The notes under the pieces are model-generated. The model was not told the DNA's origin. It made no database searches and saw only the letters and a list, made by a program, of their open reading frames with translations. The position numbers and the translations under genes were made by a program. Below are positions 2,266 to 18,770 of a stretch of 25,958 bases of DNA, piece by piece (the stretch's first letter is position 1; the number at the start of each line of letters is the position of its first letter). The stretch is from a virus: positions 1 to 25,958 of IMG/VR virus record IMGVR_UViG_3300032087_001259, one strand, 5' to 3'.

Positions 2266-3066
2266 ATGGCAAAAACTCAAGCCAACTCAGTTGCAACTAA
2301 AGCAACTGCTTCAGCACCTATGCTTTCTTCAATGGAAGAATTTGCAGGTGCAGGTGCGGAAAACATTACATCAAAAGATGTATCACTTCCGTTTCTAAAA
2401 ATACTTACTAATAATTCTCCTCAAGTCACTCAAGGTGATTCGAAGTTTATTAGTGAGGCAAGACCTGGTATGGTCATAAATTCTGTCTTGAACAAATTAT
2501 ATAATGGTCAAGATGGTTTTAATGTCGTACCATGTTTTTTTAAATTCGAATATGTAGAGTGGGCAGACAGAGGTACACAGAATTCTGTTGCACCTGTTAA
2601 CTCATATCCTGCTGATTCGGATATTATGTCCAAAACAACTAGGGGTGAGGATCGAAAAGATAGATTGCCAAACGGTAATTATATCGAACCTACTCATTAT
2701 CATTATGTGATGATAGTAGACAACAACGATCAACCATCTGAAACTGCGGTCATTGTTATGAAAGCTACTCAGGCTAAAAAGTCTAAGAAGTGGAATTCAA
2801 TGATGCTTTCTCAAAGAAGAAAAGGTAAGAGTGGTTTATTTCAACCACCTACTTGGTCTCAGATTTACAAATTAAGAACTATACTAGAGAAAAATAGTTT
2901 AGGTTCTTGGTTTGGTTGGGAGATCGAACATGAGAAAGATATACCTAATGAGACTTTAATGGAAAGCGCAATGGCTTTCTATGAGACTTGTAAAAAAGGT
3001 AATGCGAAAGTAAATCTTTCTGAGGACCAAAAACAAGAAACCGGAACTGCGGACGCGCCATTTTAA
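2266..3066 (+). CDS. Putative ssDNA-binding / recombination accessory protein
   Basis: A 266-aa protein with an AAGGAG ribosome site before ATG 2266. After a low-complexity Ala/Thr/Ser N-terminus (about 1-30) comes a conserved core beginning LPFLKILTNNSPQV, a pattern seen in phage proteins encoded between primase/polymerase and helicase genes and often annotated as DNA-binding. The C-terminus is charged and ends in ADAPF, reminiscent of SSB-type tails (acidic stretch ending in Phe) that recruit replication partners. The internal basic segment KKSKKWNSMMLSQRRKGK (around residues 171-188) would suit nucleic-acid contact. Its stop codon shares a base with the primase start (TAATG), indicating translational coupling. 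The SSB role is inference from context and tail; a RecT-like or structural role is not excluded. Confidence 0.6.
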   Translation: MAKTQANSVATKATASAPMLSSMEEFAGAGAENITSKDVSLPFLKILTNNSPQVTQGDSKFISEARPGMVINSVLNKLYNGQDGFNVVPCFFKFEYVEWADRGTQNSVAPVNSYPADSDIMSKTTRGEDRKDRLPNGNYIEPTHYHYVMIVDNNDQPSETAVIVMKATQAKKSKKWNSMMLSQRRKGKSGLFQPPTWSQIYKLRTILEKNSLGSWFGWEIEHEKDIPNETLMESAMAFYETCKKGNAKVNLSEDQKQETGTADAPF

Positions 3067-4622
3067 TGAGTTCACTAGATTTTTTTAGTAAACTTTTTGG
3101 TGGCTTAACGTCAGCATACGGTACCTACGAGCTCTCCGGAGCTCGTAGGGCAGACGGTAAAGCGGAAGGTAGAGCATTAACTAAGAAGGCAGAAGTTACT
3201 TTAGAACTATTTGCTAAACATCTTAAAGGAGAATTGTCTTTGGGTATTGTACCTATAATGAAAGACAACAACTGTAAGTGGGGTTGTATAGATGTTGATG
3301 AGTATGAAGGATTTAATCCACTTAACGTAATAAAAAAAATTAGAGATTTAAAATTACCATTGTTTCCTTACAGATCTAAATCTGGAGGATTGCATATATT
3401 TTTACATATTAATGGTGTGGTACCAGCAACTGATATGATTGATAAACTTACTAAGTTAGCTAGTAGATTAGGTCTAGCTGATTGTGAGATATTCCCTAAA
3501 CAAAGAACTATAAATGTTGAATTAGGCACGATAGGTAATTGGTTAAATCTTCCATATCAAAATGCTGAGATGACTACAAGACACGCAATAGATGACACCG
3601 GCCAATCGATACCTATAGAAAAACTAAAAAAGGCAGTGCAACCTTTTTTGGTTACACCCGAAGATTTTTACAAAATACAATTGGATGAATTAAATGATGA
3701 TGACAAAGAGTTTGTTGATTACCCACCATGCGTACAGAATTTTGTTAAGAATGCAGTTAAGCCAGGTGATGGTAGAAACGAAGCATTATTTAATGTTGGT
3801 GTTTGTATGCTTAAAAAACATGGTAAAGATGGTGCGTGGGAAGATGAATTAGGTGAAGTCAATAAGTCTTGGGGTGATGATAAGATAGACCCAAAAGAAT
3901 TAAAGATAACTGTTATTAAAAGTTTAAGTGGAGACAAAGATTATAATTACAAATGCAGTTCTCCGATAGCTAAAAAGTTTTGTGATCAAGCAGAATGTGT
4001 GAAAAGAAAATTAGGTATTGGTAAAAAGAATTACACATTTAATATAGATTCCTTTCAAAAAATAAGCACTAAACCACCTAAATATATTTTAACAATAGAT
4101 AAAAAACCTGTAAGACTTACAGGCCAACAATTGTGTCAACAACAATTATTAAAAACAGAATTGTTTGATGCAGATATTGTATGGAAAACTATGAAGCAAG
4201 AAGACTTTGGTTTATGGTTAAATTATCTTAAGTCAATTCAAACTGAGGTAGAAGGTTATGACTTTACTGATGATGATAAAGATGAGTTTGAATATCTATT
4301 CAAAAACTTTATAGATGATAGTCAGTTAGCTGATGATATATCACAAACACAAACTGATTATATATTTGAAGAAGATGGTCATGTATTTTTTAGAGCAGAA
4401 GTATTTAAAAAGTTTTTAAAGAAAGATGGTAACAGTATGAAACCATCTGAAGTAAAAGAACTATTAATAGATAACGGAGCAGAATATATTAGGCAACATA
4501 AAGAATATAAAGCTAGGTTATGGCGAATACCTAAACCTAAAATAGAAAACATAAAGGAACGTAATGTTGAATTTAAAACAGAACAATCGCCATTTGACCC
4601 AGATACACAACAAAACTTTTAA
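3066..4622 (+). CDS. Archaeo-eukaryotic-type (AEP) primase, TOTE-like
   Basis: A 518-aa protein that synthesises primers, coupled to the preceding gene by TAATG. The N-terminal third matches the AEP primase fold as found in TOTE-type systems: catalytic acidic pair IDVD (residues 75-78, metal binding), the nucleotide-binding SKSGGLH motif (104-110), then EIFPKQ (141-146) and GNWLNLPY. The C-terminal part (about 230-500) contains Cys at conserved-looking spacing (around CSS...CDQAECVKRK), possibly a small zinc-binding or DNA-binding segment, plus an acidic linker; no DnaB-like Walker A helicase motif is visible. A very stable hairpin sits about 60 nt after the start codon (listed separately). 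The tail overlaps the helicase gene start by 59 nt. Primase assignment is strong; TOTE affinity is by motif recognition. Confidence 0.85.
   Translation: MSSLDFFSKLFGGLTSAYGTYELSGARRADGKAEGRALTKKAEVTLELFAKHLKGELSLGIVPIMKDNNCKWGCIDVDEYEGFNPLNVIKKIRDLKLPLFPYRSKSGGLHIFLHINGVVPATDMIDKLTKLASRLGLADCEIFPKQRTINVELGTIGNWLNLPYQNAEMTTRHAIDDTGQSIPIEKLKKAVQPFLVTPEDFYKIQLDELNDDDKEFVDYPPCVQNFVKNAVKPGDGRNEALFNVGVCMLKKHGKDGAWEDELGEVNKSWGDDKIDPKELKITVIKSLSGDKDYNYKCSSPIAKKFCDQAECVKRKLGIGKKNYTFNIDSFQKISTKPPKYILTIDKKPVRLTGQQLCQQQLLKTELFDADIVWKTMKQEDFGLWLNYLKSIQTEVEGYDFTDDDKDEFEYLFKNFIDDSQLADDISQTQTDYIFEEDGHVFFRAEVFKKFLKKDGNSMKPSEVKELLIDNGAEYIRQHKEYKARLWRIPKPKIENIKERNVEFKTEQSPFDPDTQQNF
3124..3149 (+). other. Perfect 11-bp hairpin with UNCG-type tetraloop inside the primase gene
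   Basis: CCTACGAGCTC (3124-3134), loop TCCG, GAGCTCGTAGG (3139-3149). The arms are exact reverse complements and the RNA loop C(UCCG)G belongs to the exceptionally stable UNCG class. It encodes TYELSGAR near the primase N-terminus. No U-run follows, so a plain intrinsic terminator is unlikely. Confidence 0.8.
3596..3607 (+). repeat. GC-rich dispersed motif, partial copy
   Basis: CACCGGCCAATC here is identical to 20678-20689 and shares its core with the copies at 8230 and 8894. It falls in a different codon phase from the others. Confidence 0.5.
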
Positions 4623-6174
4623 GATCTTTGGTCCTCCTGGTACAGGTAAGACCACAAGATTAATTAAAATAGTTGAAAAACATTTAAGACTTGGTGTGCA
4701 ACCATTTGAAATGGTTTATGTTTCATTTACAAACAAAGCAATTGATGAAGCAGTAGATAGAGTTTTAAAAAAATTTAAACAATATGAAGAGGATGATTTT
4801 AATAACTTTAGAACTATACATTCTTTTTGTAAAAAAGAACTTTCATCAATACCTGTTCTTGATCCTAAAATAGATATGTTAAAGTTCCATACTGATTGGG
4901 GAACTATAAGTGCAAACTTTACTGAAGAGGATGCTAATCAAAAAGTATTTAATAACTGGTCTTTAAGAGTTTATGACAAAGCTAGAAACATGTTAATGGA
5001 TCCAGTTAGTTTATATAAAGCTGAACCCATTAAGAAAGTAAGACTACAACAGTTTACAGATATAATTAGAAATTATAAAAAATTTAAAAAAGATAATAAG
5101 ATGGATTTTACAGACATGGTTCAAAAATATGTAGATGAAATTAATCCACCATCTTATAAAGTATTTATAGTAGATGAAGCTCAAGATCTGACACCTTTAC
5201 AATGGAAATTTGTAGACAAAGTAGCTAAACAAGCAGAAAGAATTTACCTTGCAGGAGATGATGACCAGGCAATATATGAATGGAATGGCGCAAGAGTTAG
5301 AAGTTTCTTAGATTTTCCAGGAAAAATTTTTGTATTAAATAAATCATACAGACTTAACAATACAATACTTAACTTCTCAAAAGAAATATTAAAGTTTATA
5401 CCTGAGAGACAGGAAAAAGAATTCACCTCAACTAACAAATCTGAAGGATCTATTAAAACATATAGTAGATTTAACGAAGTACCTTTTGATTCATTGGAAG
5501 GCACTTGGTTTGTATTAGGCAGAGTAGGAGATAATGTCGATGAGCTTAAAGAATATGCTAGGCAAAAGGGCCTATACTTTCAGGACATGAGGGGGAATAA
5601 ATCGTTCAATATTAACAAATGGAATGCCATAAATTATTGGATTACCTTACAAAAAGGAGAGACCTTAACTAAAGAACAGGTAGGTGTTTTGTATGATTTT
5701 ATTGAACAAATTAAAAAAGGTTGGAGAAAGATCGACAACAAAGCCTGGTCTGATATCCATCCGAATCAACCTTTAGATCTAGATTACCTGAAGAGCAATT
5801 GTGGTTTGGAGACTACCGAAAAGGATTGGTGGAAAGTCTTGAACAGAAAATTTACTGGCAGAGACTTGGATTATTTTGAAAGTATGTTAAAACGAAACAT
5901 TCAATTTAACGAGAAAGCAAAAATAATTATTGATACGATCCACTCAGTTAAAGGTGGGGAGGCAGATAATGTACTGATATATGAAAAAGCTAATTGGCCA
6001 TCTAATTTTTCAACAAAAAACAACAGAGAGAAAATGGCTGAAGCGCGTGTTTGGTATACTGGTATTACACGTTCTAAAACATCCCTACATATCCTCTCAA
6101 CTAATCATACATATTTTTTTCCTTTGGGGCGTCTTGCATCTAATTACAACAGGAGAATTATAAATGAGCGATAA
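4564..6174 (+). CDS. UvrD/Rep-like superfamily 1A DNA helicase
   Basis: A 536-aa ATP-dependent helicase of the SF1A (UvrD/PcrA/Rep) type. Visible motifs in order: Walker A GPPGTGKT (23-30), motif Ia VSFTNKAIDEA, TIHSFC, Walker B VDEAQD (203-208), motif III LAGDDDQAIYEWNGA, motif IV NKSYR, motif V TIHSVKGGEADNV and motif VI YTGITRSK. It is shorter than UvrD (about 720 aa), so accessory subdomains are reduced, as is usual in phage versions. It probably unwinds duplex ahead of the polymerase or acts in recombination; with no DnaB-type helicase in view it could be a main unwinding activity. Start 4564 has AAGGAA just upstream and overlaps the primase end by 59 nt. The 3' end overlaps the next gene by 11 nt. 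Confidence 0.92.
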   Translation: MLNLKQNNRHLTQIHNKTFKIFGPPGTGKTTRLIKIVEKHLRLGVQPFEMVYVSFTNKAIDEAVDRVLKKFKQYEEDDFNNFRTIHSFCKKELSSIPVLDPKIDMLKFHTDWGTISANFTEEDANQKVFNNWSLRVYDKARNMLMDPVSLYKAEPIKKVRLQQFTDIIRNYKKFKKDNKMDFTDMVQKYVDEINPPSYKVFIVDEAQDLTPLQWKFVDKVAKQAERIYLAGDDDQAIYEWNGARVRSFLDFPGKIFVLNKSYRLNNTILNFSKEILKFIPERQEKEFTSTNKSEGSIKTYSRFNEVPFDSLEGTWFVLGRVGDNVDELKEYARQKGLYFQDMRGNKSFNINKWNAINYWITLQKGETLTKEQVGVLYDFIEQIKKGWRKIDNKAWSDIHPNQPLDLDYLKSNCGLETTEKDWWKVLNRKFTGRDLDYFESMLKRNIQFNEKAKIIIDTIHSVKGGEADNVLIYEKANWPSNFSTKNNREKMAEARVWYTGITRSKTSLHILSTNHTYFFPLGRLASNYNRRIINER

Positions 6175-17343: not shown

Positions 17344-17367
17344 TGTCGCCGTTTAACAACGGCGACA
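17344..17367 (+). terminator. Perfect 10-bp hairpin after the MGLDxYA gene
   Basis: TGTCGCCGTT (17344-17353), loop TAAC, AACGGCGACA (17358-17367), eleven bases after the stop codon. No T-run follows, so it may act as a 3'-end stabiliser or Rho-linked terminator rather than a classic intrinsic one. Confidence 0.55.
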
Positions 17368-18747: not shown

Positions 18748-18770
18748 GCGTGGCGACATGGTCGCCACGC
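18748..18770 (+). terminator. Perfect 10-bp GC-rich hairpin before the large terminase
   Basis: GCGTGGCGAC (18748-18757), 3-nt loop ATG, GTCGCCACGC (18761-18770). No T-run follows directly, but a nearly G-free C-rich stretch does, a combination compatible with Rho-dependent termination or with a DNA-level signal. Confidence 0.55.

Follow-up and report, generated by a model that had tools for sequence, protein, structure and literature searches.

Escherichia coli keeps its primase scarce through an internal terminator ahead of the primase gene in the rpsU-dnaG-rpoD operon. The same operon is named among processed operons in the available part of a report on the cip-cel operon (PMC10311766). 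A second means of unequal expression is differential mRNA decay: the accessible portion of a survey of E. coli (Dar and Sorek 2018, PMC5927463) reports that, of 34 gene pairs in operons in which the upstream message is stabilized, 26 end at a stable hairpin lacking a U tract, and that 17 of these 26 hairpins lie inside the downstream coding sequence, at a mean depth of 107 +/- 56 nt and with wobble positions that are conserved. For phage T4, the available text of one account describes the single-stranded DNA-binding protein (SSB) message as the most stable T4 mRNA (PMC3014915), and RNA-seq data for phage HTVC027P are sorted into time clusters in the accessible part of another (PMC12753301). 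HTVC023P-type phages are described, in the part of PMC9599517 available, which does not mention a hairpin, as widespread pelagiphages infecting SAR11; the available portions of the literature found do not say how such phages fix the relative amounts of replication proteins encoded by a single operon. Here we describe a hairpin inside the primase gene of a related marine phage, in a window of 25,958 nt (the whole stretch analyzed, positions 1 to 25,958 of the IMG/VR record IMGVR_UViG_3300032087_001259).

Genes and stem-loops at the junction

The primase gene (3066–4622, plus strand) matches PF22548 AEP-TOTE (E 6e-12) and the phrog_21866 primase family (E 5e-77), and is followed in the operon by a UvrD-type helicase gene (4564–6174, plus strand). 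The gene upstream (2266–3066, plus strand) belongs to PF23977 Pam3_Gp34 / phrog_2402, and its stop codon overlaps the primase start in the sequence TAATG (3064–3068, plus strand). Because of this overlap, and because no Shine-Dalgarno-like sequence is visible directly upstream of the primase start, translation of the primase is likely coupled to that of the upstream gene.

The upstream product is listed as being of unknown function, but it looks like an OB-fold, SSB-like protein, and its C-terminus, APF, ends in Pro-Phe, as does the C-terminal tip of bacterial SSB. Among 40 phrog_2402 members, 33, including that of the window, end in PF and three in PY. Foldseek matches to the AlphaFold model (pLDDT 82.9) were weak, with RPA and SSB chains at the head of the list and an RPA chain as the best (E 0.018). 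In the VIA comparison the model aligned with the RB69 gp32 core at Z 6.5 (rmsd 5.3, 152 aligned), below the top row, a PhiC31 integrase-RDF chain at Z 8.8. Searching PDB sequences with the phrog_2402 profile brought no meaningful match. Based on the weak fold similarity and the C-terminal tip, the protein is likely SSB-like. All six genomes tested by profile carry phrog_2402 upstream of the primase.

Just past the primase start codon is a small first stem-loop, SL1 (3074–3089, plus strand; ACUAGA-UUUU-UUUAGU), which is paired in 99.4% of cells over the clade and shows an A-U to G-C exchange (TCA/AGT to TCG/AGC) in 7 of 26 distinct rows. The T run at 3080–3086 was considered as part of a -1 frameshift element and rejected, since it ends about 37 nt before the main hairpin, a gap too long for the spacing rules of -1 frameshifting.

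The main stem-loop, SL2 (3124–3149, plus strand), covers primase codons 20–28 and begins 58 nt past the A of the primase ATG at 3066. Its arms (3124–3134 and 3139–3149) are 11 nt each and fully complementary, and are closed by C(UCCG)G with a 4-nt loop. Taken by itself, the hairpin has a folding energy of -22.6 kcal/mol (z -5.45), and none of 200 shuffles was equally stable. First-order Markov copies of the window contain on average 0.10 perfect stems of at least 11 bp with loops of 3–8 nt, against the one observed. The hairpin is followed by GCAGACGGT and thus lacks the U tract that, with a GC-rich hairpin, makes an intrinsic terminator. Rfam covariance models gave no match in the window at gathering score and none in the loci of nine relatives at E up to 1; twelve further loci yielded a single chance-level match (E 0.5, below gathering score, on the other strand).

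The preliminary description had reported these 11 perfect pairs and had remarked on the unusual GC-rich codons, and both points hold: over 44 homologous genes, ACC supplies 9.5% of Thr codons, CTC 3.0% of Leu, AGG 9.3% of Arg, TCC 4.9% of Ser and GAG 23.6% of Glu. It had also treated the UNCG tetraloop as a feature of the element. This does not generalize, and we reject the loop as the key feature: its letters vary within the clade, and UCCG occurs in only 14 of 44 sequences, those with the codon TCC.

Among the window's hairpins inside long ORFs, SL2 is the strongest; the remaining strong ones occur between genes or in short ORFs. Two perfect 10-bp GC-rich hairpins, at 17344–17367 and 18748–18770, occupy ORF gaps upstream of the terminase gene, share GTCGCC/GGCGAC and have no U tracts; they are perhaps further boundary hairpins. 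A relative's contig (G002, locus L148) contains an intergenic hairpin at 31515–31534, GTGGCTCC-TTCG-GGAGCCAC, directly 3' of a gene and ahead of a purine-rich sequence resembling a ribosome-binding site, and a similar hairpin is found on the other strand of a second contig (G001, 45489–45508).

Conservation of pairing in SL2

A search of viral contigs for relatives gave 80 loci. The 51 with a gene start (about 70–100% identity), together with L141 and the window, supplied 53 coding sequences, 44 of them distinct; fragments without a start (L049, L051-L053) and distant loci were left out, and in L023 and L141 part of the primase gene is missing. The tree comprises 43 of the 44 sequences, omitting L141, and was built without the hairpin codons under test.

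With G.U counted, 10 or 11 of the 11 SL2 pairs are kept in every one of the 44 distinct sequences, including the window. All nine outer pairs are intact in 42, and the remaining two have C.A at the terminal pair. When codons are redrawn synonymously at the frequencies of these genes, all nine outer pairs arise with a probability of 0.00045–0.0028 per sequence. Recoded segments reached the native fold at most twice in 300 trials in the 19 clusters of the window's clade, and never in 300 in 38 clusters of the HTVC023P clade, described below.

Codon use under the hairpin is similarly constrained. Glu22 is GAG in 44/44 although GAA makes up 76% of Glu codons; its column is the only codon-invariant one among 11 invariant Glu columns, and that of Ala26 the only one among 10 for Ala. 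Thr20, Glu22 and Ala26 require 1, 0 and 0 parsimony steps, where columns of these amino acids average 7.0, 3.4 and 5.0. Closer to the loop, Leu23 and Gly25 change freely, with 7 and 4 steps.

The clearest coupling joins residues 21 and 27. Tyr21 as TAC is accompanied by Arg27 as CGT in 33 of the 44 sequences, TAT by His27 as CAT in the other 11, and mixed combinations do not occur. Each column changed three times and on the same three branches, a coincidence with a chance of about 1.4e-4 if changes fall by branch length. Three exchanges between C-G and U-A have therefore taken place, every one accompanied by an amino-acid replacement in one arm. An independent-pairs sign test on TAC/CGT gave 3/3 (p 0.25), as fewer than six pairs cannot reach 0.05. 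In alignment A1, the numbers of paired cells and of double-change cells and the covariation score exceeded those of all 500 shuffles; the same control left the count of pairs changed on both sides unsupported (2, against a shuffled mean of 1.8), and likewise that of further pair types.

These observations bear on the preliminary description, which had proposed to look for compensatory changes in the arms and had named homologues retaining the residues with the pairing lost as evidence against its reading. Compensatory changes are present, the synonymous switch at Tyr21 and the Arg/His27 switch together turning C-G into U-A, and no homologue with the residues and without the pairing came to light among the 44. 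The pairing rather than the peptide thus appears to be selected, as residue 27 alternates between Arg and His while the pair stays. From this comparison of sequences, SL2 is a real element, and its pairing is very probably under selection at the level of RNA.

The same junction in other phages

The junction was surveyed in 270 chosen loci, excluding fragments, near duplicates and starts off ATG; 11 of the 13 L056-type loci retained a start. The Pelagibacter phage HTVC023P (MN698239, L160) and its relatives have a hairpin of their own, longer than SL2 and spanning +43 to +84 of the primase gene, with about 18 bp and a bulge. One of its pairs is exchanged between U-A and C-G (14 and 18 of 34), and across both stem-loops of this clade six pairs have changed on both sides. 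In seven relatives at a greater distance (L236-L240, L242, L243; about 46% identity), that place is taken by a further, different stem.

Within about 2 kb, the best 45-nt fold lies at the junction in 19/19 clusters of the window's clade, 38/38 of the HTVC023P clade, 15/19 of the HTVC027P type, 29/32 of the L065 type and 5/10 of the L056 type, where 2.6, 5.2, 2.6, 4.3 and 1.3 were expected. The compartment follows the length of the spacer between the genes. In the two clades with spacers of -1 to 8 nt, which include the window, all 57 clusters have the hairpin inside the coding sequence. When the genes lie about 30 nt or further apart, it is the spacer that contains the best simple hairpin (HTVC027P type, 18/19 clusters; L065 type, 26/32; L056 type, 8/10). 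The count of simple hairpins allows no bulge, so that eight HTVC023P clusters score as having none; folds of -21 kcal/mol or below are nevertheless found in all 38. In the DSL-LC04 clade, simple strong hairpins were found in 17 of 51 clusters (14 in the spacer, three in the coding region), and many of its spacers contain a larger structure in which the stems vary around GAAAG and GAGUA.

The junction fold is also the local best in Pan1 and R5C, both of which have phrog_2402 ahead of the primase. In six records with a primase that has no phrog_2402 upstream, by annotation or not profile-tested, the best fold is at the junction in one (L485), too few for a comparison. A single scan of genome contigs for cellular relatives yielded four distant loci. 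Taken together, these comparisons show that in several phage clades the hairpin belongs to the junction of the upstream gene and the primase. It mostly resides in the spacer of relatives that have one, and within the primase gene where the genes abut.

Three kinds of structured spacer deserve description. DSL-LC04-type loci (L411, L414, L427, L453, L467, L472, L476 and others; for example, L411:878-1003) have a leader with an outer stem GGGGCC/GGCCCC (variants GGGG/CCCC and GGGAC/GUCCC), GAAAG opposite GAGUA, and a variable inner stem. It has no usable Rfam match, and its GAAAG/GAGUA resembles the bulged-G/loop E motif. Spacers of L162, L142, L158 and L353-L393, which span several primase clades, contain the hairpin motif RAWG-(G/C)GAGA(C/G)-UGGA, with the closing pair changing from G-C to C-G. 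The spacers of about 118 nt in L060, L065, L076, L156 and L325-L330 combine an outer stem, a CUUCGUUAG-like single strand and an inner stem, and the sequences of their stems differ greatly between loci.

Possible function and alternatives

By analogy with the E. coli decay barriers, we propose that SL2 is an intercistronic RNA barrier keeping the upstream phrog_2402 mRNA above that of the primase, a proposal that could equally prove right or wrong. Following cleavage further downstream, or when the primase is untranslated, 3'-to-5' exonucleases would halt at the hairpin, and the upstream mRNA with its protected 3' end would outlive the primase mRNA. The result would be an excess of a structural single-stranded DNA-binding protein over a catalytic primase. 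SL1 and the missing Shine-Dalgarno sequence may further reduce primase translation, and in clades with a U run after the spacer hairpin, partial transcription termination may yield the same imbalance. Of the roles suggested in the preliminary description, control of primase dose and a processing site in the operon mRNA are still the favored candidates.

The hairpins share only stability and position, and neither sequence, length nor compartment, which suggests a physical barrier rather than a sequence-specific site. SL2 has the attributes of protective structures embedded in coding sequences: it lies shortly past the upstream stop, within the downstream gene and without a U tract, and the wobble positions over it are conserved at E22 and A26 in 44/44. 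The hairpins inside phage coding sequences share the design of the E. coli barriers. Several points count against a barrier. The precedent is enterobacterial, whereas HTVC023P-type phages infect SAR11; ribosomes translating the primase would melt the hairpin; the SSB-like assignment of the upstream protein draws on weak fold similarity and a C-terminal tip; the elaborate leaders with conserved internal-loop letters in several relatives exceed the needs of a bare barrier; and the fold at the L056-type junction is the local best in only 5 of 10 clusters, with simple hairpins in only 17 of 51 for DSL-LC04.

The main rival is an RNA that binds a regulator, suggested by internal-loop letters that are conserved in some relatives. 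Such an operator would be bound by the upstream protein, the primase or a host factor, or would sense a condition, and so control primase translation; we regard it as possible, if unlikely. The conserved letters are RAWG-(G/C)GAGA(C/G)-UGGA in HTVC027P- and L353-type spacers, and GAAAG...GAGUA, constant between varying stems, in the DSL-LC04 clade. T4 offers a parallel, as both gp32 and gp43 are repressors of their own messages and a hairpin serves as the operator for gp43, but in the available part of that account the T4 operators are around or upstream of the ribosome binding site (PMC3014915), whereas SL2 starts 58 nt past the start. Moreover, from clade to clade the hairpins agree in neither sequence, loop nor placement with respect to the start codon, and even inside the window's clade the loop letters vary, which a sequence-specific binder would not allow.

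A wider reading, which we hold to be doubtful, treats the junction of phrog_2402 and primase, in a widespread group of phages, as the site of a near-obligatory RNA device that persists although its sequence, shape and compartment turn over, and that ties primase supply to the SSB-like protein, possibly by direct binding. It would encompass three or more types of structured RNA that match nothing in Rfam: tandem stem-loops in the coding sequence, the GAGA-loop hairpin with its RAWG/UGGA internal loop, and the GAAAG/GAGUA leader.

Transcription attenuation, in which the hairpin would pause or terminate RNA polymerase between the upstream gene and the primase, is improbable. U runs (at least five T in the next 9 nt) do follow some spacer hairpins, as in 11 of 28 L065-type and 6 of 9 L056-type clusters having a hairpin (TTTTTTT in L080, TTTTTT in L333), but none follows the hairpin in the 57 clusters with one inside the coding sequence, the window with its GCAGACGGT included.

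A DNA-level element, whether a cruciform, as the preliminary description had suggested, a single-strand initiation site for the primase or a dimeric operator, is very unlikely. The perfect dyad does lie inside a primase gene, and symmetric changes would preserve a dyad as well. Departures from pairing speak against such an element: in the window's clade (27 rows) SL2 has G.U in 19 cells against one A.C, and the inner helix of the HTVC023P clade (34 rows) has 49 against none. In duplex or cruciform DNA the two mismatches should be equally harmful, so the excess of sense-strand G.U shows that only that strand needs pairing, and that selection acts on RNA. Read in the sense direction, the loops of relatives include CUUCGG, GCAA, GAAA and GAGA, which are stable RNA-type tetraloops.

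Nor does the hairpin behave as an origin or a repeated site. In four long contigs the GC skew tracks gene direction and does not switch near the hairpin, and we reject a replication-origin reading. A repeated operator or promoter is likewise rejected: the exact pattern is present once per contig in 10 of 17 records, single-copy wherever found, and absent from seven, which include ACT, AGA or TTA variants excluded by the pattern and two distant relatives. Among 10 pattern loci viewed in viral contigs, nine of them examined as candidates, L091 and L101 are primases and the other eight are not; matches outside this primase are read as chance.

Finally, a coding accident, with the GC-rich codons kept for the peptide or through recent common descent, is scarcely credible: SL2 does fall within the conserved peptide AYGTYEL.GA.R.DGK, but the recoding nulls, the conserved wobble positions and the coupled TAC/CGT and TAT/CAT speak against it, as do the unrelated hairpins at nearly the same codons of HTVC023P-type genes and the count of 0/44 distinct sequences among close relatives with the peptide and without the pairing.

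Comparison with known systems

The element is unusual for covariation inside a coding sequence and for its shift between spacer and coding sequence, and is otherwise of a known type, with evolutionary evidence of uncommon strength behind it. The persistence of the hairpin through matched codon and amino-acid changes shows that selection on RNA structure can influence which residue a replication enzyme carries, and the movement between spacer and coding sequence offers a natural experiment on the proposal that operon stoichiometry is set by RNA barriers in downstream genes. We found no literature on RNA structure at a phage SSB-primase junction.

Control of T4 genes 32 and 43 is alike in that RNA structure governs replication proteins. 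It differs in using autogenous operators near the ribosome binding site, and a conserved hairpin inside the coding sequence of a neighboring gene is not described in the available part of the T4 account (PMC3014915). The rpsU-dnaG-rpoD operon also has an RNA element ahead of a primase gene; there, however, the terminator is in a spacer, and the DnaG primase and the upstream gene are unrelated to those described here. The cip-cel operon, as far as the available text goes (PMC10311766), resembles the phage junctions in having stem-loops without a common sequence at operon boundaries between products needed unequally, but it is cellular, its stem-loops are intergenic and cleavage has been shown experimentally.

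Closest are the differentially decaying operons of the malE-malF type, which, in the accessible portion of that survey (PMC5927463), likewise have a stable hairpin without a U tract at the boundary of a gene pair, in many cases within the first part of the second coding sequence and with conserved wobble positions. Compared with these, the element described here belongs to a phage replication operon, shows base-pair covariation and shifts from spacer to coding sequence.
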